64,000 nt of DNA from Skermanella pratensis (GTDB lineage: Bacteria > Pseudomonadota > Alphaproteobacteria > Azospirillales > Azospirillaceae): assembly GCF_008843145.1 (NCBI RefSeq), contig NZ_CP030265.1, positions 4,519,001 through 4,583,000 of the forward strand, read 5' to 3'. Numbering within the stretch: the first letter of the stretch is position 1; each line of letters begins with the position of its first letter. A program made the position numbers and the translations under genes. The notes under the pieces are model-generated. The model did not search any database and had not been told where the DNA came from. It was given only the letters and a program-made list of their open reading frames with translations. Positions 51,380 to 63,762 of this stretch are shown here, piece by piece.

Positions 51380-52420
51380 ATGAAGTTCCTGATGAAGGGT
51401 GTGAAGGCGGGCCTGTCCGGCGCGCTCGCGGTCGCCGGCCTGGCGCTCGCCCTGGCGGGCGGCGCCGCGGCGGCGGAGCCGGAGAAGACGGACGTGTCGC
51501 TGGCGGTCGGCGGCAAGCCGCTGCTGTACTATCTCCCGCTGACCGTCGCCGAGCGGAAGGGCTTCTTCAAGGAAGAAGGCCTGAACGTGGAGATCAACGA
51601 CCTGGGCGGCGGCGCCAAGTCGCTCCAGGCGCTGATGGGCGGGTCGGTCGATGTCGTGACCGGCGCCTACGAGCACACGATCCGCATGCAGCAGAAAGGC
51701 CAGGACATCCGGGCCGTGGTCGAGCTGGGGCGCTTCCCCGGCATCGTGCTGGCGGTGCGCAAGGACCTGGCGGGCGAGATCAAGTCGCCGGCCGACTTCA
51801 AGGGCCGCAAGATCGGCGTCACGGCACCCGGTTCGTCCACCGCGCTGACGGTGCAGTACGCCATGGTCAAGAACGGCCTGGCCGCGGCCGACGGCATCCT
51901 GATCGGCGTCGGCGGCGGCGCCAGCGCGGTGGCCGCGATGAAGCAGGGCCAGATCGACGTGATCTCGCACCTGGACCCGGTCATCGCCAAGCTGGAGGCC
52001 GACGGCGACATCAGCACGCTGATCGACACCCGCACCGAGGACGGCGCGCGGGCGCTGTTCGGCGGATCGAACCCGGCGGCCGTGCTCTATGCCAAGGCCG
52101 ACTTCATCGAGAGCAACCCCGAGACCATGCAGCGCCTGACCAACGCCTTCGTGAAGTCGCTGACCTGGATCGGCAAGGCGACCACCGAGGAGATCGCCGC
52201 CGTGGTCCCGCCCGAATACCACCTGGGCGACAAGGGCCTCTACATGAAGGCCGTCGAAAGCTCCAAGGAGAGCTATTCGCTCGACGGCATCATCAAGAAG
52301 CAGGGCATGGAGAGCATGCTGGCGATGCTGAAGACCCTGGAGCCCGACTTCGCCAACGCCCAGATCGACCTGGACAAGACCTTCGACCCGACCTTCGTGC
52401 AGAAGGCGCAAGCGAAGTAA
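51380..52420 (+). CDS. NitT/TauT-type ABC transporter substrate-binding protein
   Basis: A 346-aa SsuA/ThiY-like periplasmic protein. The signal peptide ends GGAAAAEP. It then reads LPLTVAERKGFFKEEGLNVE, GGAKSLQALMGGSVDVVTGA and GRKIGVTAPGSSTALTVQY, all family-typical. It is the last gene of the operon and is followed by a clear terminator. Confidence 0.92.
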   Translation: MKFLMKGVKAGLSGALAVAGLALALAGGAAAAEPEKTDVSLAVGGKPLLYYLPLTVAERKGFFKEEGLNVEINDLGGGAKSLQALMGGSVDVVTGAYEHTIRMQQKGQDIRAVVELGRFPGIVLAVRKDLAGEIKSPADFKGRKIGVTAPGSSTALTVQYAMVKNGLAAADGILIGVGGGASAVAAMKQGQIDVISHLDPVIAKLEADGDISTLIDTRTEDGARALFGGSNPAAVLYAKADFIESNPETMQRLTNAFVKSLTWIGKATTEEIAAVVPPEYHLGDKGLYMKAVESSKESYSLDGIIKKQGMESMLAMLKTLEPDFANAQIDLDKTFDPTFVQKAQAK

Positions 52421-52504: not shown

Positions 52505-52654
52505 CTTGTTTCTGGATATTTTCAGAACTGAAATCCAGGCTGAAGAACAAATCCGGTTTATTTTCCGGATGGTGTTTGTATAATTAAGAGCATTACTAGA
52601 AGGTAGTGCATTCACAGGTAGTCAATTTTCAAACCATTGCATGGAGGCAACAGC

Positions 52655-52990
52655 ATGACCACGCATACCGCCTTGGCCGCTCGCCAGGACTTCAGCGCCC
52701 ATATCGCTGCCATGGTCCTGAACGGCGAAGGTTTTCGTGACAGCATGATGGACGACCCCACCGCGGCGCTGGACGCCATGCTGTCGTCGGCCGGCCTGGA
52801 ACTGCCGAAGGGCCTGCGAGTCGAGGTCACCCGCAAGGCCGACGGCACCCTCGACATCCGCCTGCCCAGCATGGCTTCGCCGAAGCCCGGTTTGGCCCGG
52901 CTGGACGAGGAGCTGGAGTCGATGCAGATGATGGGCTGCTCCGCCTCCTACGCCACCAGGGTCGGCAGCTTCTGCTGCTCCTGCCCGTAA
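52655..52990 (+). CDS. Lanthipeptide precursor with NHLP-type leader
   Basis: A 111-aa RiPP precursor with a GGAGG site before the ATG at 52655. The leader resembles the nitrile-hydratase-like (NHLP) family: FRDSMMDDPTAALDAMLSSA, then GLELPKGLRVEVTRKADGT and LDIRLP. The acidic segment LDEELESMQMMG leads into a C-terminal core GCSASYATRVGSFCCSCP. The core contains four Cys and several Ser/Thr, the composition needed for lanthionine rings. A single Gly, not Gly-Gly, precedes the first Cys, so the cleavage site is uncertain. A LanM gene lies convergently 98 bases downstream, and no second precursor was found. Confidence 0.88.
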   Translation: MTTHTALAARQDFSAHIAAMVLNGEGFRDSMMDDPTAALDAMLSSAGLELPKGLRVEVTRKADGTLDIRLPSMASPKPGLARLDEELESMQMMGCSASYATRVGSFCCSCP

Positions 52991-53088: not shown

Positions 53089-56000
53089 TTATTCCCAGAC
53101 CAGGACGGAGGGCAGGCGTTCGGGCCGCGCGAGGCGCAGCAGCATGTAGCCGATCCCGGCGCTCCCCTGCCAGAATCCGGGATTGAAGACGGACCGGGGC
53201 AGCGACGGATAGTGCTGGAAGCCGCCTTCCGAGTCGGCCGCCGCGACCAGCGCCGCGCCGATCCGCCGGGCCTCCCCGACCAGGTCGGGCCGCGTGAGTC
53301 CCTGTCCGGCGTTCAGCAGCAGCTCGGCCCGGCCGAGGGTGCCGCAACAGGGGTGATCGACCTCGGCCAGGCCGCCCCCGAGCACCGCCGCGACGGCGGC
53401 ATCGATATCCCCGTCGATCGCCGGGCCTTTCAGGACCGGCAGGCCGGCGAGCCGGGCGAGGCCGATGCCCGCCGCGCCGTGGCACCAGGAATTGATCGGC
53501 CGGGAATGGTCGTGCCCGGCGACGGCCATGCGGCGCCACGTGCCGACACCGCCGATCAGGACCTCGTTCTCCCAGGCCACGGCTTCGGCCGCCGCGTCCA
53601 GGAACTCGGTCGAGCCCGTGGCGCCGGCGAGCCGGGCCAGCGCATAGGCGATGCCGGCCGCGCCGTGCGACAGGCCGGTCACCGGCTCGCCGCCGGCCGA
53701 CCAGACGCGCGCGCCCGATGAGCGGCAGGGCCGCCGCCGCGCCAGCAGGTGCCGGCCGCACCGGTCGGCCCGGGAACGCAGGGACCCGTCCGCGTCGCCG
53801 GAGACCTCGGCCAGCGCCAGCAGGGCCAGCAACGCTCCGGCCGAGCCGTCGACCACATCCAAGCGCTCGTCGTCCGCGACGGCCCGGTCGCCGATCAGGG
53901 CGGCGGCCCGGCAGGCATCGTCCAGCAGGTCGGGCCGGTCCAGCAACCCGGCCACCCGCGCCAGGCCATAGGCCACCGACCCGATGCCCGAGCCGGCGCC
54001 GACCTTGTGGCCGACCAGGGCGCCGATCAGCCCGTCGGACAGGGCGGCCCGGACCGGCACCAGGGCCGCGAGGGCGGCGGCCCGGTCCTGCTCGCGACCG
54101 CCGGTCGCCGCGACCGCCGCGAATAACAGCGCTATTCCCGTGGAGCCGCCATAGAGATCCGGCCCGACCGGCCCGATCGTCAGGCTGTGCCCCTGGGCCG
54201 CGATCCACAGGGCTCCGCCGTCCTCTCCCCGGCAGGAACGCCGCCACAGGTCGTCGGCGAGGCGCTGCGCATAGGCCAGCGCGTCCCGCCCGTCCAGCGA
54301 TCCCGTCCCGTCAGGCAGCGGCCGTTCGGCCAGTCCCGGGACGTGGCCGTCGTCCACGCCGCGCTGGTCGCGCACCACCTGCATCGCGACCGCCATGCGG
54401 ATCAGCATGGACTGGTCGCCGCGGTCGGCCTCCCCCAGTTTCCGAGGTGCTCGCGGGCGCCCGCCAGGCCCGACGCCGCCAGGGCGTCGGCGACGACCCG
54501 GTCCGGGGCCACCTCCAGGGAGGTCGAGCCCGGATGCGCCCGCAGGAGCGGCACGTCGCCGTCGGACAGGGCCGCCCGCTCCGCCGTGACGAGCGGCCAT
54601 TGCAGGGGCTGCCTGACCTTGACCTCCTCCGGCAGCTCGTCGTCCACGGCGCGCCGGGTCAGCACGTCGGCCCGGGCGCTCCAGGCGGCGCCGTCGCCCA
54701 GGAACTCGGCATGGGTCAGCTCGCCCATCAGCAGGGAGTAGAACTTCGTGTCGCGGCACAGGACGCGGATCCATCCGGCTTCCGGCATCTCCAGCGGCCC
54801 GCCCTCCTCGGACAGGATGCCGGACAGGAGATCGCGGCTGCCCAGCAGCAGGGCGTATCCCTCGTCGAAGCCGTCCAGGACGGCGTCGAGATGGTCCTGG
54901 ATGCGCAGTGCCACGCCGTCCAGGCGCGGCAGGTTGGACGGGGGTTCGTCCGCCATCGGGACCGTCTCGATGTACATCAGGTCGGTGTTGATGTGGAACC
55001 ATTTCGGCCCCGGGACCGGGACGTCGTCCCGGCCGCCGCTGAAGCCGCCGATGTCCCGGTCGCCCTCGCCGGCCTGGATCATGGACGGCAGCAGCAGCGT
55101 CGAGAGGACGGAGCGGCGCAGCCGGCGTTCGGCGGCACGCCGGGCCGGAGACCGCGGGTCGGTCCAGCCGAGCCGGAGCTCGGGGGACAGCACCGTCTCC
55201 AGGTCGATCAGGACGGGATGCTCGCCGGCGGCGATCAGGTTCTCGTGGTGGCAGTCGGTCAAGGCGACCGCGTAGGCCAGCGCCAGGAGGAGGCCGGCGC
55301 GCCTGAAGTAACGCCCGGCCGCCTCCCCGTCCGCGCAGGGCATGGCGGCGATGAACTCGGCCCAGCCATAATCGCCGCGGTCGAGCACCCGGACGGCGCG
55401 CAGGTCCAGGCTCGGCCCGAGGCCGTTGAACCAGTCGATCAGATCGGCGAAGTACCGGTCCGGGGCCATGCCGCGCGGCTTGTAGACGGTCTTGAGGCCG
55501 CCGCCGAACTCGACCACGACGACCGACCGGCCGCCGCGGTGGAGGTCGGACAGCCCGCCCCGCGCCTTGACGCCCCTCCCCGGCTCCGCCCCCTGCGCGA
55601 AGTGCCCGGCGATCGCCGGCAGATCGGCTTCCAGCCGGCGGCCGAACTCCTCGACATGGGCGGCCCAGTTGAGGGCGAGAGTGCCCAGCAGCCGCGCCAG
55701 GACCGGATGCCGGCCGCAGAACTCCAGGAATCCCGGTCCCCGGCGCTCGGCGACGAACCGATCGTAGAGGTTCCGGCCGGGTTCGCCCCGGGCGAGGCGC
55801 AGCAGCCGTTCCAGCCCGGAGATCTCGGCATCGCGGAGAGCCACGAGTTCGGCCAGCAGCGCCCGCTCCGAGGCGCCGCACAGCGTCTTCAGCAGCTCGC
55901 GGTTCAGCGCCTCCACCACGCCGTCGGCGAACAGCCGCCGCCAGCCCGTGCCGGCCGGGGTCAGGCGCCGCAGGGCGGCCTCGGCCAGCGGAGCCAGGAT

Positions 56001-56351
56001 CCCGATGAAAGGCAGGGCCGCGGGGTCCGTCGATGGCGATGTCGCGGAATCGGGACCATTATCGGGATCGGCCGCCTTGGCGAGCACCCAGCCCCAGTCC
56101 GGCACCGCCTCGACCCGCGGCACGCCGGACAGAAGCCGGCGCGCCGAAGCCTCGTCGAGGCCGTCATAGGCCAGCCGGCGGGCGAACTGGGCCTCGTTCC
56201 CGCCGACGGCAGCCTGCCGCCAGGCGTCCAGCCAGTCCGCGACGGAGCCGGCCGCCCCCTCGCGCGGTTCCAGCGGCACGCCCATCCGCTCATCGATCCT
56301 GGTCGCCGCCGCCGCGATGCGCCGCAGCTCCGCCGCGATGTCGGTCGTCAT
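53089..56351 (-). CDS. lanM: Class II lanthipeptide synthetase LanM, with a one-base frameshift
   Basis: About 1087 aa if repaired, normal for LanM. The N-terminal dehydratase (DUF4135) has GGGLKTVYKPRGMAPDRYFA (ATP-site Lys), the kinase-like DCHHENLI and HPVLIDLETVL. The C-terminal LanC-like cyclase has LSHGAAGIAYALARL, the zinc motif NSWCHGAAGIGLARL and HPCCGTLGRAELLL. The last is the Cys-Cys-Gly variant seen in substrate-tolerant ProcM-type enzymes. The frame breaks at 54439-54443: upstream ends EHLGN and downstream resumes KLGEADRGDQS, as if one base were missing beside AAA. The start at 56351 (MTTDIAAEL) lies four bases inside the upstream GNAT gene. Confidence 0.88.
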
Positions 56352-57316
56352 CGATCCTGCTCCCCGTCCTGAGAATACGTTCGGCACCCGACCTTCCGGC
56401 CCCAGATCACCGAGGAACCGGTGCGGACCCATCCGGCCTCTTCGTAGATCCGCCGGATCGCGGCGTTGCGGCGGCGGACCACCGCGCCGATCAGGGGAAT
56501 CCCGGCGCTCCGCGCCCGCTCGACCAGGAGGCGGGAGAGCGTCAGAACGAATTCCCCGGCCAGTCCGGTCCCCCAGTGCCTCCGCGCGACCAGGAACCAG
56601 TCCAGGCTGAGTTCGGCGGGCCGGGCGACGATGACCGCGACCGCCGCCGGGCCGCCGTCGCGTTCCAGCGCCAGGAGGCTCAGCGCGGGGTCGGAACGCC
56701 AGCCGGCGACCGTCCCGGGCAGGAACGGCGACACCAGGGGATCGCCCCGGAAGCCGCGGTTGAAAAGCTCGGCGATATCATGGTCCCAACGGTCGTCGGC
56801 GGGGCCGAGGATCGTCGGCATCTCCCCGGTTCCCGCCTGCGGGGCGATCGATGACAGGCGGTCCGGATCCAGGACGACGCGGTCGGTCGTTTCGAAGGGA
56901 TGGAAGCCCGCGGCCCGCAGCATGGTTTCGGCGGCGACGTTCTCCGGCGCGGGAAAGGCGATCACCGTCCCGCCCTCCGGTTCCAGGGCCTCCAGCAAGG
57001 CGCCGAGCAACCGGCGGCCGATGCCCCGGCGCTGCCGCTCGGGGGAGACCCACACCGCGACGCCGTGCATCGCTTCGCCGCTGAACGAGGTCCGCCGCCA
57101 CGCCACGGCCAGGGCCACGGGGCTGCCATCCACTTGGCCGACCAGCCCCAGGGCCGGGCGGCCGACGTGATCGCTCAACCGTTCCGCCGAGGGTGCGCCT
57201 TCCCCGGTCGTGTCGGCGCCCGTCGGATCGCCGGCATCGGGCGAGCCCCGCTCAGCCGCGATGACAAGCCTGCACAGGGAGTTCTCGGCGCAGGCCGACA
57301 TGGGTTCGATCAGCAT
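56348..57316 (-). CDS. Tandem-GNAT acetyltransferase coupled to lanM
   Basis: A 322-aa protein with two GNAT domains. In the first (~45-165) the acetyl-CoA loop is VWVSPERQRRGIGRRLLGAL. The second (~190-315) has SLDWFLVARRHWGTGLAGEF and NAAIRRIYEEAGWVRTG. Its stop overlaps the lanM start (ATGA), so the two are co-translated. It may N-acetylate the mature peptide or confer self-protection; this is inference from coupling. Start choice is uncertain (57316, 57325 or a TTG at 57361). Confidence 0.82.
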   Translation of the reverse strand: MLIEPMSACAENSLCRLVIAAERGSPDAGDPTGADTTGEGAPSAERLSDHVGRPALGLVGQVDGSPVALAVAWRRTSFSGEAMHGVAVWVSPERQRRGIGRRLLGALLEALEPEGGTVIAFPAPENVAAETMLRAAGFHPFETTDRVVLDPDRLSSIAPQAGTGEMPTILGPADDRWDHDIAELFNRGFRGDPLVSPFLPGTVAGWRSDPALSLLALERDGGPAAVAVIVARPAELSLDWFLVARRHWGTGLAGEFVLTLSRLLVERARSAGIPLIGAVVRRRNAAIRRIYEEAGWVRTGSSVIWGRKVGCRTYSQDGEQDR

Positions 57317-57495: not shown

Positions 57496-58266
57496 TCACG
57501 GCCGCACGCCCGGCGTTTCCATCGGCAATCCCCGCGCCCGCGTCATCAGGAAAAGCTCCAGTTCGGCGTGTTCGGGGGAGCCGTAGGCGTAGGGTTCGGC
57601 GCGGACGCCGGTCATGCAGTTGCGCAGGCGCCGCTGGAGGGAGCCCATGGACTGCCATTCCAGGCGGTAGATCGGATAGCCGGTCGGGTGCGCCTGGGGG
57701 ATCACCGCGCCGCCGAGATGCCGGCCCCAGTTGTCGTCGTGGCAGTCGGCGCAGGAGAAGTCGAGTTGTCCCTTGGGGCGGGTGAAAAGCTCGCGCCCGC
57801 TCTCGGCGAAGGGGGCGAGCCGGGGGTCGGCACCGGTCTCGACCGGCAATCCCCGGGACTGGTGGGCGACATAGGCCGAGAGGGCCAGGAGGTCGGGGCT
57901 TTCCCACTCGAACGGTTCGGCCCGCTGGCGGGACTCCCGGCACTGGAGGATGCGCCGGTCCAGCGTGACCGGGCGCCCGGCAGCCTCGTCGAAGGCGGGA
58001 TACCGGGCGGCGACGCCGCGCATGGAGGCGGCCGCGTCGCCATGGCAATCGGCGCAGGAGCGGCCCGACGCGCCGCCGGCGCGGTTCCACAGCGCCTCGC
58101 CGTCCAGGACCGAGAGCATTCCGGGATTGGACATGTCGTCCTGCTGCATCGCCCGGGTCTGCGGCCCCAGGAAGTCGAAGCCGGAAAGCCGGTCGGCGGC
58201 GCCAAAGGCCGCACCGCCCAGCAAGGCCAGCGCCAGGGCGGCCGCGAGATGCCGCCCCCTGGTCAT
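57496..58266 (-). CDS. soxA: SoxA, diheme sulfur-oxidation cytochrome c subunit
   Basis: A 256-aa exported protein (signal peptide MTRGRHLAAALALALLGGAA). Two CADCH haem motifs lie in SCADCHGDAAASMRGVAARY and SCADCHDDNWGRHLGGAVIP. The conserved RNCMTGVRAEPYAYGSPE region provides the active-site Cys haem ligand. SoxAX couples a reduced sulfur compound to the SoxYZ carrier in the periplasm. It is the last gene of the operon and overlaps soxZ by four bases. Confidence 0.94.
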   Translation of the reverse strand: MTRGRHLAAALALALLGGAAFGAADRLSGFDFLGPQTRAMQQDDMSNPGMLSVLDGEALWNRAGGASGRSCADCHGDAAASMRGVAARYPAFDEAAGRPVTLDRRILQCRESRQRAEPFEWESPDLLALSAYVAHQSRGLPVETGADPRLAPFAESGRELFTRPKGQLDFSCADCHDDNWGRHLGGAVIPQAHPTGYPIYRLEWQSMGSLQRRLRNCMTGVRAEPYAYGSPEHAELELFLMTRARGLPMETPGVRP

Positions 58267-58583
58267 TCCACCGTGATCGTGACGGTCTCCGTCTGGGTCT
58301 TGCCCTGGTCGTCGGTCCAGCTCAGTGCGATCTCGCCGCTCTCATTGGCCACCGTCGTGAAGGTGAGGAAGGGATTGGCGGTGATCGCGGGGAACAGGTC
58401 GACGCTGAACACCTCCTCCCCGTTATAGGTGCAGGCGAAGCGACGGATGATGTCGCGCGGGATCAGGGCACCGTCGGAAGCGGGGCGGAAGCCGGTCTCC
58501 ATGGGGTGGGAGATCAGGGCCTTGATTTCGACGACCTCGCCGCGCTTTGCGGTGGCCGGGACGTTGATCAGGGTGCGGGCCAT
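58263..58583 (-). CDS. soxZ: SoxZ, sulfur carrier partner
   Basis: A 106-aa immunoglobulin-like protein without a signal peptide, as is usual because it is exported with SoxY. ALISHPMETGFRPASDGALI and RDIIRRFACTYNGEEVF are typical. It is three bases downstream of soxY. Confidence 0.94.
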   Translation of the reverse strand: MARTLINVPATAKRGEVVEIKALISHPMETGFRPASDGALIPRDIIRRFACTYNGEEVFSVDLFPAITANPFLTFTTVANESGEIALSWTDDQGKTQTETVTITVE

Positions 58584-58586
58584 GGC

Positions 58587-59051
58587 TCAGCTCTCCGCGC
58601 AGGCGGGAAGCGTCACGATCACCTCGGCCTCGTCGGACCAGAAACTGCCGTCGCTGAGCTGGGCGATGGCAACGATCTTCTGGGAATCGCCGAGGCGGAT
58701 GCGGGTGGAGACGCTTGCCCGGCCGGACCGGGGGGTCAGGTGGAAGGTCGCCACGTTGGGCTGGGGGTTCTTCTCGTTGAACACGGCGATGGTTCGGACG
58801 AAGTCGCCGGGCTGCATCCAGTGGGCCACGTTGACGCCCAGGGGGACGGAGTTGCCGTTCTCGACCAGCGCCGGCAGGACAAGCTCGACCTTGCCGGGGT
58901 TGACCGGCGCGCCCTTGGTGAAGGCTTCGATCGCGTCCGCCATGGCGGCCGGCGTCGCCCCGGCCGGCCGCACCAGCAGGAGCACGCCGAGAGCGGCGCC
59001 GGCGCGCAGGACGTTCCGCCGCGTGGTCCCCATCGGATCGCCATTCGCCAT
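58587..59051 (-). CDS. soxY: SoxY-family sulfur carrier with a non-canonical C-terminus
   Basis: A 154-aa protein with a twin-arginine signal TTRRNVLRAGAALGVLLLV. The core KVELVLPALVENGNSVPLGV and FNEKNPQPNVATFHLTPRSG are SoxY-like. Canonical SoxY ends in GGCGG, whose Cys carries the sulfur substrate. Here the protein ends VTLPACAES: one Cys remains, four residues from the end, but the flanking glycines are gone. The frame is clean up to the stop, so this is not a visible frameshift. The altered tail may change substrate or partner enzyme. Confidence 0.9.
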   Translation of the reverse strand: MANGDPMGTTRRNVLRAGAALGVLLLVRPAGATPAAMADAIEAFTKGAPVNPGKVELVLPALVENGNSVPLGVNVAHWMQPGDFVRTIAVFNEKNPQPNVATFHLTPRSGRASVSTRIRLGDSQKIVAIAQLSDGSFWSDEAEVIVTLPACAES

Positions 59052-59064
59052 GGGCAGGGTCTCC

Positions 59065-59487
59065 TCAATCCTTCAGTGTCGCCAGGAACGCCACGACGTC
59101 CTCGATCTGCCCGGCCGACAGGATCGGCTTGCCGCGCCATGCCTCGGCCACGCGGTCGAGCCCGTCGGTCCTGTAATAGGAGGGCATGATGGTGTCCGGA
59201 TCAAGACTGCGCGGGTCCACGATCCGCAGACGGATCTGTCCTTCGGTCAGTCGGGCGCCGACGCCGGCGAGCGACGGCGCCAGGTCGCCCTGGAACCGCT
59301 CCTCCGGGAACGGGCCGGAATGGCACAGAAGGCACAGCCCGGTCTGGCGGCTGGTCACGATCCCGCGCCCGCGGGCCGGGTCCCCGGCGGCGGCGGTCAG
59401 CGGCTCCGGGATCGAATCGCCGACGACCGTATAGGCCGGGGCCGGGGCGGGGGCCAGCGCCAGGGCAAGTCCGATCGTCCACATCAT
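59065..59487 (-). CDS. soxX: SoxX, monohaem cytochrome c subunit
   Basis: A 140-aa exported cytochrome with a short signal (MMWTIGLALALAPAPAPA). The haem motif is in TGLCLLCHSGPFPEERFQGD, and IMPSYYR supplies the distal Met. The C-terminal GKPILSAGQIEDVVAFLATL is typical of SoxX. The start overlaps the stop of the flavoprotein gene. Confidence 0.92.
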   Translation of the reverse strand: MMWTIGLALALAPAPAPAYTVVGDSIPEPLTAAAGDPARGRGIVTSRQTGLCLLCHSGPFPEERFQGDLAPSLAGVGARLTEGQIRLRIVDPRSLDPDTIMPSYYRTDGLDRVAEAWRGKPILSAGQIEDVVAFLATLKD

Positions 59488-60752
59488 CCGAAGACCTCCG
59501 CCGTCACGATGTCGAACCAGGAGTGGGCATAGGCCGCCTCCTTGGCGCGGGCTTCGGCGGGAGCGTCGAGCGGGCTGGTGCCGCCGGCGCCTTCCACGTC
59601 GGCCAGCGTGCCGGAGGACGGCGCATAGACGCCGGCGACCGAGATGCCGTAGTCGGGCGCCACCAGGCTGTAACAGGTGTTGATCAGCTTGGGCGGAACC
59701 GGTCGATTGCCGCGCAGCAGGGCGGCGACGGCTTCGGCGCAGACCTTGGCCTGGGCGTTGGCGGAGAAGGCCGACTTCGGCATGGCGCCGGCGATGGCGG
59801 CATCGCCGATCACGTGGATGCCGGGCTGGAGCCTGGATTCGAAAGTGACGGGGTCGATCGGGCACCAGCCGGAGCGGTCGGCGACCCCCGTCGCCGCCGC
59901 GATCTCCGCCGCCTTCTGCGGCGGGATCACGTTGGCGACATCGGCCTTCACCCGGTCGAAATCGGTCACGAAGGTCAGGCCGTCGGGCTCCACCGCGGTG
60001 ACCTGCCCGCCGCCGGACAGCGGCACCAGTTCCAGCAGCCCGGGGTAGAGCCTGGCCCACGCCGCCTGGAACAGGCGCTGCTTGGAAAAGCCGTCCTTGG
60101 CGTCGAGCACGATCAGCTTGGAGCGCGGCTTGCGGGTCTTCAGGTAGTGGGCGATCAGGCTGGCGCGCTCGTACGGCCCCGGCGGGCAGCGGTAGGGGTT
60201 GGCCGGGACCGACATGACGACCACGCCGCCGTCCTCCATGGCTTCCAGGCGGCGCGCCAGCAGGACCGTCTGCTCACCCGCCTTCCAGGCGTGCGGCATC
60301 ACCTGAGCCGCCTTCTCGTCGTAGCCGGGCAAGGCGCCGTACCGGATGTCGATGCCGGGCGCCATGACAAGGCGGTCGTAGTCGAGGGTGGAGCCGTCGC
60401 CGAGCGTGACGCGGCGGGCCTGCGGATCGACGCCGACGGCCCGCTGGTGGACGACCGCGACGCCGGCGCGCCGGATGCCGTCATAGCCGAACCGCTGCCG
60501 CTCGACGGACCGCAATCCGACGGCCACCGAATTGCTGAGCGGACAGGCGGTGAAGGTCGGGCTGGGCTCGACCAGGGTCACGTCGATGCCGTGGGTCCGG
60601 AGGAACCGCGCGCAGGTGCCGCCTCCGAAACCGCCGCCGATGACGACGGCCCTGGGCGGCGCCTGGGCGCGGACCGGACGCACGAGCGCCGCCGACGCCC
60701 CGGCGAGCAGGGAAGCCAGCACCGCACGGCGGCTGGGATGGAGCAGGTCCAT
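59484..60752 (-). CDS. soxF: Flavocytochrome c sulfide dehydrogenase flavoprotein (FccB/SoxF)
   Basis: A 422-aa FAD protein with a twin-arginine-like signal (SRRAVLASLLAGASAA). The FAD motif is VVIGGGFGGGTCARFL, followed by FTACPLSNSV, where one of the redox Cys lies. CPPGPYERASLIAHYL and VIGDAAIAGAMPKSAFSANA are conserved in FccB. INTCYSLVAPDYGISVAGVY holds a further Cys. It should oxidise sulfide or a protein-bound sulfane with the adjacent cytochrome as acceptor. It is 10 bases downstream of that cytochrome gene. Confidence 0.92.
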   Translation of the reverse strand: MDLLHPSRRAVLASLLAGASAALVRPVRAQAPPRAVVIGGGFGGGTCARFLRTHGIDVTLVEPSPTFTACPLSNSVAVGLRSVERQRFGYDGIRRAGVAVVHQRAVGVDPQARRVTLGDGSTLDYDRLVMAPGIDIRYGALPGYDEKAAQVMPHAWKAGEQTVLLARRLEAMEDGGVVVMSVPANPYRCPPGPYERASLIAHYLKTRKPRSKLIVLDAKDGFSKQRLFQAAWARLYPGLLELVPLSGGGQVTAVEPDGLTFVTDFDRVKADVANVIPPQKAAEIAAATGVADRSGWCPIDPVTFESRLQPGIHVIGDAAIAGAMPKSAFSANAQAKVCAEAVAALLRGNRPVPPKLINTCYSLVAPDYGISVAGVYAPSSGTLADVEGAGGTSPLDAPAEARAKEAAYAHSWFDIVTAEVFG

Positions 60753-60762
60753 GGCGTCCCTG

Positions 60763-61071
60763 TCAGCGGCGGGAGGCGATCCAGGCGGCTATCGCCCGGA
60801 TCTCCTCCTCCGTGAAGCCCTTGGCGATGCGGTCCATCACCGTCGGGCTGCCCTCGCCCGCCCGGTATGCCAGCATCGCCGCCGCGATCTCGTCGGCCGG
60901 TTTCGACAGGATCGGCGGGATGCCTGCCGATGCCTCCCCGCGCAAGGCGTGACACCCGGAGCACGACGAGGCTCCGGGCGGTTCCGCCGCCCGGGCTCCG
61001 GCGGCCACCAGGGACAGCACGCCGCACAGGGCGCCGCACAGGGCGCGGAACAGGACAGGGGCGCGGATCAT
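60763..61071 (-). CDS. Monohaem cytochrome c, flavocytochrome small subunit (FccA/SoxE-like)
   Basis: A 102-aa exported protein: signal peptide ending GARAAEP, haem motif SSCSGCHALRGEA, and C-terminal KGFTEEEIRAIAAWIASRR. Its ATG overlaps the molybdenum-hydroxylase stop (ATGA) and it directly precedes the flavoprotein gene. It is positioned to take electrons from either enzyme. Confidence 0.88.
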   Translation of the reverse strand: MIRAPVLFRALCGALCGVLSLVAAGARAAEPPGASSCSGCHALRGEASAGIPPILSKPADEIAAAMLAYRAGEGSPTVMDRIAKGFTEEEIRAIAAWIASRR

Positions 61072-63272
61072 GCCCTGCGCAGATCCGCGTTCGCCAGGGG
61101 CACCGAGCGGATGCGCTTGCCGGTCGCGGCGAAGATCGCGTTGAGCACGGCGGGCGCCGCCACGAAGATCGTCGGTTCGCCGACGCCGCCCCAGAAGCCG
61201 CCCGACGGCATGACGATGGTCTCGACCTGCGGCATCTCCTCCATGCGCATCATCGGGTAGGTGTCGAAATTCTCCTGCTGGACCCGGCCGTCCTTCAGCG
61301 TGATCTCGCCGTAGAGCAGGGCCGAGAGGCCGTAGACGAACGATCCCTCGACCTGCGCCTCGATCTGCTGCGGGTTGACCGCGTGGCCGCTGTCGGTGGC
61401 CGCGACGATCCGGTGGATCTTCAGGGCCCCGTCGTCGCTGACCGACACCTCGGCGCAGGCCGCCACGTAGCTGCCGTAGCCCATGTGCTGGGACAATCCG
61501 CGATGGACGCCTTCGGGCGCGGGTGTGCCCCAGCCCGCCTTCTCCGCGACCGCGTTCAGCACGGCCAGGTGCTTGGGATGGTTGACCAGCAGCTTGCGGC
61601 GGAACTCCAGCGGATCGGCGCCGGCGGCATGGGCCAGCTCGTCCATGAAGCATTCCAGGTATATCGCGTTCTGGTTGTTGTTCACGCCGCGCCAGAACCC
61701 CGGCGGCACCGGCGGGTTGCGCATGGCGTGGTCGACCAGCAGGTTCGGGACGGTATAGCCGAGCACCCCTTCCGTGCCGCCCGGGTTCAGTCCCTGGAAC
61801 GTGGCGGGGTCGCGCCCGCCCTGAAGCGCCTGCGGGTTGATCGCCGCCAGGATCGACTGGCCGGAGATCCGCATGTGCAGGCCGTCCAGGTTGCCGTCGG
61901 CGTCCAGCGCGCCGGTCAGCTTGCACTGGGTGATCGGGTGGTAGCGGCCGTGGAGCATGTCCTCCTCGCGCGACCAGATCAGCTTGACCGGCGTGCCGGG
62001 CATCTGCTTCGCGATCAGCACCGCCTGCCGGACATAGTCGTGGCTGGACGAGCGCCGGCCGAAGCCGCCGCCGAGGTGGAGCCGGTAGACCTCGCATTGC
62101 GGGATCGGCAGCCCGGCGGCGGTGGACGCGGTGGCGAGCGCCGCCTCCGCGTTCTGGGTCGCGGTCCAGACCTCGCACTTGTCGGCCGTGAACAGCGCGG
62201 TCGCGTTCATCGGCTCCATGGTGACGTGGTGCTGGTAGGGATAGCTGTAGACCGCCTCGATCACCTTGTTGCCGGGCTTGGCGAGCGACGCCTTGATGTC
62301 GCCGGCCTGGTTGCCGACGAAGGCTTCCGGCGCGTCGAGCCCCTCGCGGAGCGTCTCGGCGATCGCCTCGCTGGACAGGCCGGCGTTCGGTCCCTCGTCC
62401 CACTCGACCGGCAGGGCCTCCAGGGCCGTCTTGGCGCGCCACCAGGTATCGGCGACCACCGCCACGCCGGTGTCGCCCACAGCGACCACCCGCTTGACGC
62501 CGGGCATCCCTTCGACCGCGGCGGCGTCGAAGCCCTTGACCTTGCCGCCGAACACGGGGCACTCGCGGATCGCGGCGTTCAGCATGCCGGGCAGCTTGAC
62601 GTCCATCGAGTAGACCTGGGCGCCGTTCAGCTTCTCCGCCGTGTCGAGGCGCTTGACCGGCTTGCCCGCGATCTTCCAGTCCTTGGGGTCCTTGAGCGGC
62701 ACGTCGGCGGGCGGCTGGAGCTCGGCGGCGGCGAGCGCCACCTTGCCGTAGGTCGTGGTCCTGCCCGACGCGGCGTGGGTGATGACGCCCTTGTCCACCG
62801 TGCATTCGGCGGCCGGGACGTTCCATTCATTCGCGGCGGCCTGGACCAGCATCATGCGGGCGGCGGCGCCGCCTTTCCGGACATAGTCGTGGGAATCGCG
62901 GATGCCGCGGCTGCCGGCCGTCTGGAAATTGCCCCAGATCCGGTTGCGCGCCACGTTCTGGCCGGGAGTCGGATATTCGGTCGTGACCCGGGACCAGTCG
63001 CAGTCCAGCTCCTCGGCGACGAGCTGGGCGAGGCCGGTCAGCGTGCCCTGCCCCATCTCGACGCGGGCGATCCGGACCACCACGGTCTCGTCCGGCCGCA
63101 CCACCACCCAAGCGTTGAGTTCGGGCGTCGCGGCCCCTCCGGCAGACCCCATGGCGGCAGGCGTCGCCGCCTCGGCCCCGAACGGGATATGGAAGCCCAG
63201 CATGAAGCCGCCGGCCGCGGCGGCGGAGCCGGCCAGGAAGCCCCGGCGCGACGTCTTGAGCGCGATCGTCAT
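61068..63272 (-). CDS. Periplasmic xanthine-dehydrogenase-family molybdenum subunit (IorB-like)
   Basis: A 734-aa protein with a twin-arginine signal (KTSRRGFLAGSAAAAGGFML). It contains ARVEMGQGTLTGLAQLVAEE, HLGGGFGRRSSSHDYVRQAV, PGFWRGVNNNQNAIYLECFM and the C-terminal GGFWGGVGEPTIFVAAPAVL with the catalytic Glu. The arrangement is that of isoquinoline 1-oxidoreductase beta subunits, which pass electrons to cytochrome c. GGGAGGATGAT precedes the ATG at 63272. It sits in the same transcript as SoxXYZA; its substrate is unknown. Confidence 0.92.
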   Translation of the reverse strand: MTIALKTSRRGFLAGSAAAAGGFMLGFHIPFGAEAATPAAMGSAGGAATPELNAWVVVRPDETVVVRIARVEMGQGTLTGLAQLVAEELDCDWSRVTTEYPTPGQNVARNRIWGNFQTAGSRGIRDSHDYVRKGGAAARMMLVQAAANEWNVPAAECTVDKGVITHAASGRTTTYGKVALAAAELQPPADVPLKDPKDWKIAGKPVKRLDTAEKLNGAQVYSMDVKLPGMLNAAIRECPVFGGKVKGFDAAAVEGMPGVKRVVAVGDTGVAVVADTWWRAKTALEALPVEWDEGPNAGLSSEAIAETLREGLDAPEAFVGNQAGDIKASLAKPGNKVIEAVYSYPYQHHVTMEPMNATALFTADKCEVWTATQNAEAALATASTAAGLPIPQCEVYRLHLGGGFGRRSSSHDYVRQAVLIAKQMPGTPVKLIWSREEDMLHGRYHPITQCKLTGALDADGNLDGLHMRISGQSILAAINPQALQGGRDPATFQGLNPGGTEGVLGYTVPNLLVDHAMRNPPVPPGFWRGVNNNQNAIYLECFMDELAHAAGADPLEFRRKLLVNHPKHLAVLNAVAEKAGWGTPAPEGVHRGLSQHMGYGSYVAACAEVSVSDDGALKIHRIVAATDSGHAVNPQQIEAQVEGSFVYGLSALLYGEITLKDGRVQQENFDTYPMMRMEEMPQVETIVMPSGGFWGGVGEPTIFVAAPAVLNAIFAATGKRIRSVPLANADLRRA

Positions 63273-63294
63273 ATCATCCTCCCAGATTGCGGCT

Positions 63295-63762
63295 TCAGCC
63301 GCGCCCGACGTCGCCGCCGCCGGCGGCAAGCTTGATGGCCGCGCGGATGCGGTTGTAGGTCCCGCAGCGGCAGATGTTGGTCATCTCGGCGTCGATGTCG
63401 TCGTCGCTCGGGTTCGGGTTGGATTCCAGCAGGGCCGCTGCGGCCATGATCTGGCCGGACTGGCAGTAGCCGCATTGCGGCACGTCCAGTTCCGCCCAGG
63501 CCTTCTGGAGCGGATGGCCGTTGTCCGGCGACAGCCCCTCGATGGTGACGATGCGCTGGTCGGCGCCGACGGCGCTGACAGGCGTCACGCAGGAGCGGAC
63601 GGCGACGCCGTCCAGGTGGACCGTGCAGGCGCCGCACTGCGCGATGCCGCAGCCGAACTTGGTACCCGTCAGGCCGACCTGCTCCCGGATCACCCAGAGA
63701 AGCGGCGTATCGGGTTCGACCTCGATGTCGTGCGACGTGCCGTTGATGGTAAGCTGGACCAC
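63295..63762 (-). CDS. 2Fe-2S subunit of the molybdenum hydroxylase (IorA-like)
   Basis: A 155-aa protein. The plant-type cluster is in [16 protein letters not shown] and the second cluster in [16 protein letters not shown] and [15 protein letters not shown]. The GTG start at 63762 has AGGAGG at ideal spacing. It has no signal peptide, so it is probably exported as a complex with the twin-arginine-bearing large subunit. It is the first gene of the eight-gene operon. Confidence 0.93.

Follow-up and report, generated by a model that had tools for sequence, protein, structure and literature searches.

The closest described relatives of the locus considered here are the canonical Sox systems of Paracoccus and of Bradyrhizobium sox locus I, in which SoxXA, SoxB and the molybdenum enzyme SoxCD accompany a SoxYZ carrier with a single cysteine on a GGCGG arm, and the truncated Sox systems, which have SoxB without SoxCD. 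Individual parts are also shared with the isoquinoline 1-oxidoreductase and membrane-bound aldehyde dehydrogenase group (PDB 8gy3), with flavocytochrome c sulfide dehydrogenase and with fused SoxYZ carriers. Here we describe an operon of Skermanella pratensis, found in a stretch of 64,000 nucleotides (NZ_CP030265.1, positions 4,519,001 to 4,583,000; hereafter the window), in which genes for an IorAB-like molybdenum enzyme, a small cytochrome c and an FccB-like flavoprotein precede soxXYZA. The operon resembles canonical Sox in the catalytic residues of SoxXA, the one-cysteine arm of SoxYZ and a periplasmic-type molybdenum enzyme, but it contains neither SoxB nor SoxC, its molybdenum enzyme belongs to the xanthine-oxidase family and its arm is not GGCGG; it also differs from the truncated type, which has SoxB. 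The operon is a real, widespread and conserved unit across Alpha- and Betaproteobacteria, and its substrate is probably a sulfur compound other than thiosulfate, despite the annotation.

The first-pass annotation of the window had described eight genes on one strand with gaps of at most 22 bases, and the coordinates confirm this arrangement. From 63762 to 57496 on the minus strand, the genes iorA-iorB-cytC-fccB-soxX-soxY-soxZ-soxA are separated by 22 (iorA-iorB), 10 (cytC-fccB), 13 (soxX-soxY) and 3 bases (soxY-soxZ) and overlap by 4 bases at iorB-cytC, fccB-soxX and soxZ-soxA (Table 1). SoxX, SoxZ and SoxA scored 74.6, 97.4 and 231.7 bits with their NCBIfam models, above the cutoffs of 61, 76 and 110, and SoxA, present in one copy in the genome, aligned with the dihaem SoxA 1h31 (4e-51), while SoxX had no Pfam match. 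Pfam cutoffs were exceeded by IorA (Fer2, Fer2_2), IorB (MoCoBD_1, MoCoBD_2) and FccB (FCSD_central, FCSD-flav_bind); the small cytochrome c, which contains CSGCH, scored 26.8 against 27 for Cytochrome_CBB3 and 26.1 against 21.3 for Cytochrom_C. FccB aligned with 5n1t (5e-136) and 1fcd, and its FCSD domains and three cysteines are those of flavocytochrome c sulfide dehydrogenase, although here the protein is encoded within the operon and is optional. An RR motif followed by a hydrophobic stretch at the N-termini of IorB, SoxY and FccB suggests Tat signals and thus export.

Neither IorA nor IorB attained an NCBIfam equivalog cutoff, and the name isoquinoline 1-oxidoreductase appears to fit them by resemblance only. 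Judged by its MoCoBD domains, its fold and its catalytic glutamate, IorB is a predicted molybdenum hydroxylase of the xanthine-oxidase family, as the first reading had it, and in known members of this family the hydroxylated atom is carbon. Its best PDB match and nearest solved relative is the aldehyde dehydrogenase 8gy3, with which the pair shares the two-subunit molybdenum and [2Fe-2S] composition, the fold and the molybdenum-site residues; the predicted model of IorB (pLDDT 78) served for the fold search only, and model quality is poor in its loop 401-410, where part of the GGGFG motif lies. Unlike the 8gy3 group, however, sox-linked IorB is tied to SoxYZ and forms one clade of its own (102 of 102 sequences, support 1.0, against 14 other IorB) with private conserved positions that include H445, F693 and T701.

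The absence of SoxB and SoxC, remarked on earlier for the window, extends to the entire genome, a single contig of 5.87 Mb, in which no SoxB exceeded the cutoff (the best two matches reached 114 and 64 bits against 550) and SoxC gave no match at E<=0.001; SoxD was not searched for. The two SoxB candidates were taken as 5'-nucleotidase-like, on their scores alone, and the SoxB model also gives below-cutoff matches in 10 of 14 control genomes.

The carrier itself departs from canonical SoxY. It reached 194.5 bits with TIGR04487 ('SoxY-related AACIE arm protein', cutoff 172) and only 102.4 bits with the true-SoxY model TIGR04488 (cutoff 125), so that the distinction between this carrier and true SoxY already exists in databases, although TIGR04487 is a protein model only. 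The protein aligns with PDB 2oxg, and the carrier cysteine is retained while GGCGG is replaced. The A-C pair of the arm was invariant in the 23 AAC-type SoxY aligned, and the arms of the loci collected with IorB (see below), readable in 73 of 74 cases with one cut, all conformed to [APS]AC-x-[ED]; the residue before AC may be G or S in some loci. This motif provides a simple sequence test to distinguish these operons from canonical Sox.

A TIGR04487 search of 289 genomes of the class found a match in 69, of which 16 were above the cutoff, and the neighbourhoods of the 40 best of the 69 matches were examined, including the window's own and several on short contigs. By their arms, 24 were of AAC type and 16 of GGC type, and IorA or IorB adjoined the sox genes in 20 of the 24 AAC loci versus none of the 16 GGC loci. 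Two of the four AAC loci without an adjacent pair lie at a contig end (L041, L013), a third has less than 2 kb upstream (L060) and the fourth has none beside it (L051); in all four genomes an IorB of 63 to 81% identity is encoded at another place. Altogether, 23 of the 24 AAC genomes have an IorB of at least 63% identity and the remaining one (G011) has broken IorB pieces; conversely, an AAC SoxY is present in 23 of the 24 genomes with such an IorB (two genes partial). The IorB of G011 (L057, contig G011:C53) is divided into two pieces of 51% and 53% identity, and an in-frame TGA occurs in one of them, which reflects a broken gene or an assembly error; the completeness of this genome is 77%.

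The same loci were searched by tblastn, the queries being SoxB and SoxC of canonical loci; the SoxB queries agreed with profile-scored SoxB, and the SoxC query had been identified from position and sequence only. Neither gene was detected at the 24 AAC loci, whereas SoxB was present at 12 (two being query sources) and SoxC at six (one being the source) of the 16 GGC loci. Genome-wide, SoxB exceeded the cutoff in four of the 24 AAC genomes (G122, G011, G127 and G044), each with a second SoxY within 1 kb of SoxB, and in six of seven other genomes searched, whose best SoxY was of GGC type. In the wider phylum, 15 of 398 genomes had a TIGR04487 match above the cutoff, and four of these, from one genus and of about 2 Mb, carry IorAB-SoxXYZA. 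Passages of a published study describe sox clusters of Polynucleobacter as partly Bradyrhizobium-like, with energy gain not confirmed (PMC3308952).

A second survey, anchored on IorB and queried with an alignment of 17 IorB, considered the best 80 of at least 592 confirmed stretches; these 80 loci are not independent, 17 being from Bradyrhizobium. By record title, nearly all belong to Alpha- and Betaproteobacteria, and the hosts include Skermanella aerolata (IorB 89% identity), Microvirga, Azospirillum, Bosea, Methylobacterium, Ancylobacter, Roseomonas, Duganella and Roseateles, among others. In 69 loci the sequence extended 4 kb or more beyond IorB on its downstream side, and SoxY was found there in 67 of them, while SoxX, SoxY, SoxZ and SoxA were all seen in 67 of the 80; SoxB and SoxC were detected by tblastn at none of the 80. 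The commonest order was IorAB-SoxXYZA (26 loci), followed by versions with cytC-FccB in between (19) and with FccB but no visible cytC (15); cytC-FccB stood behind soxA in five, and the remaining orders were rarer. After reduction of the 17 Bradyrhizobium loci to three, 66 loci were screened for a further conserved gene using flank ORFs called by a simple script with a minimum length of 90 aa, which would miss short genes: the best cluster, ABC-ATPase-like, occurred in 10 and the next in seven, and within 4 kb any extra cluster was common to at most six loci. The conserved co-occurrence that the first-pass annotation suggested looking for is therefore borne out, and fortuitous adjacency is unlikely given 67 of 69 loci for SoxY versus at most 10 of 66 for any other cluster.

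The residues expected of working enzymes are also conserved. Across the 66 loci that carry the six core genes, among them that of the window, every SoxX has one CxxCH, every SoxA two, every SoxY its cysteine and every IorA eight cysteines, and the active-site cysteine of SoxA is present in 65 (one gap). The catalytic glutamate, the TQN glutamine, the GGGFG phenylalanine and the GFWR arginine of IorB occur in all 66, and the three cysteines of FccB (n=40) in 40, 40 and 39 (one gap).

We tentatively propose, with confidence falling just short of even, that the eight genes work together as a unit, namely a Sox-like pathway in the periplasm that lacks SoxB and SoxCD and in which IorAB would oxidise a thiol bound to SoxYZ. 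The retained cysteine-haem site of SoxA implies that a thiol, whether an organic thiol or sulfide/sulfane, would be coupled oxidatively by SoxXA to the arm cysteine of SoxY, with electrons passing to c-type cytochromes. IorAB might then oxidise the carrier-bound organosulfur compound at carbon with water, or an aldehyde released from the carrier, and two [2Fe-2S] clusters would relay its electrons to a cytochrome c. Removal of the sulfane sulfur left on the carrier could dispense with hydrolysis by SoxB and rely on FccAB, in loci that have it, or on thiol exchange.

Without SoxB, the known chemistry of thiosulfate would halt after the SoxXA coupling. Thiosulfate is thus an unlikely substrate, given the lack of SoxB and the acidic residue two places after the arm cysteine in most members, which would disfavour an anionic guest. 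Since SoxB is missing and IorAB could oxidise at carbon with water, an organic thiol on SoxY is the favoured guest, FccAB handling leftover sulfane or sulfide. In its most specific form, SoxXA would join an organic thiol to SoxY as a mixed disulfide and IorAB would hydroxylate the carbon adjacent to sulfur, so that the two atoms separate in the periplasm with neither SoxB nor SoxCD involved; this version is possible, although on balance somewhat unlikely. If true, hydroxylation of a tethered substrate would be a novel means of clearing a Sox carrier, and common bacteria of soil, plants and freshwater would have a new route for organosulfur compounds. The interpretation in the first-pass annotation, an IorAB-like enzyme acting on an organic sulfur compound or a SoxYZ-bound intermediate, is accordingly supported in part: the gene set and its conservation stand, and the chemistry keeps the tentative standing given here.

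Several observations weigh against the proposed pathway. Of the 80 IorB-anchored loci, 45 have FccB in the stretch and the other 35 show none, some of these being cut by contig ends. Two loci (L130, L156) have IorAB without sox genes in 10 kb downstream, one (L155) has IorAB-SoxYZ without SoxXA, and three (L158, L162, L172) show no SoxA, the downstream sequence being long enough in all four, while in genome G066 (L229, 8782-12915) an IorAB-SoxX-SoxA arrangement leaves no space for SoxYZ between soxX and soxA. The acidic arm residue is absent in three SoxY-anchored loci (L054, L056, L057), and methanethiol oxidase (SBP56) was not enriched (2 of 24 versus 17 of 265 genomes, p 0.66). Moreover, two divergent loci (L227, L228) have arms GACS and SGCI beside IorAB, with SoxX and SoxA not found at these loci. 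From these two and from L155, L158, L162 and L172, it seems that SoxXA is not always needed.

Other divergent loci, picked like these two because both genes lay close so that no rate follows from them, place less similar IorAB beside SoxYZ with arms SGAC-x-E (L225, L231) or GACE (L243), and one (L226) combines two tandem IorAB pairs with SoxYZ, FccAB and SoxXA, its SoxY being extended at the C-terminus and its arm unreadable. Genomes G087 and G200, two of the seven with a GGC-type best SoxY, also carry divergent IorAB-SoxYZ loci. In a FastTree phylogeny of SoxYZ, L227 and L228 fall with the 16 GGC members, as long branches within that clade (support 0.87), and the 38 AAC members group with the other four divergent ones with a support of only 0.73. 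As in L155, the genes of L166, whose sequence stops 1.7 kb past IorB, run IorAB-SoxYZ without an intervening SoxX. The reduced and divergent versions have IorAB with SoxYZ in common.

These versions bear on a carbon route, in which IorAB would oxidise an aldehyde held or trapped by SoxYZ as a hemithioacetal and SoxXA with FccAB would maintain the proper state of the carrier thiol. This alternative is serious, because the nearest solved relative of IorB, 8gy3, acts as an aldehyde dehydrogenase and SoxXA is missing from a few versions, only IorAB-SoxYZ being kept in L155, L227 and L228. It also resembles SoxYZ fusions beside alcohol and methanol dehydrogenases, for which carbon roles have been proposed in PMC11237559. 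Like those fusions (TIGR04557 and SoxYZ-S2, S4), the operon sets a SoxYZ-type carrier beside a non-SoxCD dehydrogenase; unlike the fusions beside PQQ alcohol dehydrogenases, it has separate Y and Z genes and another dehydrogenase, and its TIGR04557 scores (57.1 and 49.3) are far below the cutoff of 140. The presence of SoxXA with its catalytic cysteine in most loci and of FccB in many points instead to sulfur, and we consider the carbon route doubtful. Outside the window, two weak SoxY-like matches (G000:C1 4307908 and 2161912) occur in long ORFs of 287 and 314 aa, which may encode SoxYZ fusions of the type associated with dehydrogenases.

Alternatively, though this is unlikely, IorAB could stand in for SoxCD, converting SoxY-bound sulfane, derived from sulfide or from polysulfide made by FccAB, to a sulfonate that would leave as thiosulfate or sulfite by thiol exchange and not via SoxB. 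A carrier, a periplasmic molybdenum enzyme and a cytochrome follow the same logic as SoxCD, FccB with its three cysteines is kept in many loci and SoxC was not found in the genome or at the AAC and IorB-anchored loci. However, known enzymes of the family act on carbon, the nearest solved relative of IorB is an aldehyde dehydrogenase and FccB is not seen in 35 of 80 loci.

It is improbable that IorAB is a separate dehydrogenase merely travelling with sox genes. The sox-free L130 and L156 are in its favour, as is the comparison of distance matrices, in which IorAB and Sox agreed less (r 0.38-0.67) than members within each block (0.83 and 0.70-0.80), in Mantel correlations with 299 shuffles that do not separate common descent from coupling. 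The near-constant co-location of IorAB and SoxY, the presence of IorB in genomes where it is not adjacent to sox and the several less similar IorAB-SoxYZ pairings argue against it. Thiosulfate oxidation of the ordinary type, in which genes elsewhere in the genome would provide SoxB and SoxCD, is very improbable, and for this genome it is refuted unless SoxB is replaced by a hydrolase that was not recognised: SoxX, SoxZ and SoxA do pass thiosulfate-family cutoffs, some such genes are so named by NCBI and SoxB occurs in four AAC genomes, but those four have a second SoxY next to SoxB, the other 20 have no SoxB above the cutoff, and this genome has neither SoxB above the cutoff nor a SoxC match.

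The two carriers may also be separated by function in Bradyrhizobium diazoefficiens, which has two soxY genes and requires only soxY1 for thiosulfate, according to passages of PMC5748708. In the strain searched, one SoxY exceeded the true-SoxY cutoff, one in the operon region fell below it and one match was weaker; three other Bradyrhizobium had two or three SoxY above it. We infer that soxY2 is of the AAC-arm type, and the operon may explain why one soxY copy is dispensable for thiosulfate. No SoxY above the same cutoff was found in Skermanella aerolata, a Bosea, Roseateles depolymerans or Duganella radicis.

As the first-pass annotation had suspected, no description of the IorAB-Sox pairing, nor of a role for the AACIE arm protein, was found in open-licence papers. 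In the part of PMC11237559 on tree building, SoxY without 'GGC' were removed beforehand, and the AAC-arm group was therefore left out of that tree. Public records name the genes of this operon piecemeal: all eight occur on a plasmid of Methylobacterium sp. NMS14P, a plasmid of Roseomonas marmotae has FccAB behind soxA, and the plasmid table of Neorhizobium galegae (annotation only) lists no gene at the place of IorB. Operon genes are named for thiosulfate or sulfur oxidation in such records, though SoxB and SoxC were detected beside none of the 80 IorB-anchored loci and none of the 24 AAC loci. If the proposed pathway is true, a route of sulfur or carbon-sulfur oxidation that has not been described exists in Bradyrhizobium, Methylobacterium, Duganella, Roseateles and further common genera, and counts of soxX, soxZ or soxA alone would overstate thiosulfate oxidation.

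Table 1. Genes of the operon, from iorA to soxA (positions in the window).
Feature	Position	Strand	Basis
iorA-like [2Fe-2S] subunit, 155 aa, GTG start	63295..63762	-	Pfam Fer2 + Fer2_2
iorB-like molybdenum subunit, 734 aa, putative Tat signal	61068..63272	-	MoCoBD_1 + MoCoBD_2; 8gy3 best PDB match
small monohaem cytochrome c, FccA-like by position	60763..61071	-	marginal Pfam cytochrome; CSGCH
fccB/soxF-like flavoprotein	59484..60752	-	FCSD domains; 5n1t, 1fcd
soxX	59065..59487	-	TIGR04485 above cutoff; one CxxCH
soxY-related carrier, arm end LPACAES, not GGCGG	58587..59051	-	TIGR04487 above cutoff, TIGR04488 below cutoff
soxZ	58263..58583	-	TIGR04490 above cutoff
dihaem soxA	57496..58266	-	TIGR04484 above cutoff; 1h31

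Next to the operon, the window contains a LanM-like lanthipeptide synthetase (53089-56432, minus strand) split over two frames, with a DUF4135 domain in 54402-56432 and a LANC_like domain in the ORF 53089-55881, which reflects a frameshift, a sequencing error or two genes. A small ORF beside it on the opposite strand (52637-52990, plus), with a Ser/Thr/Cys-rich tail and no Pfam match, is a possible lanthipeptide precursor. An NMT1/THI5-like ABC substrate-binding protein is encoded about 5 kb from soxA (51392-52417, plus strand).

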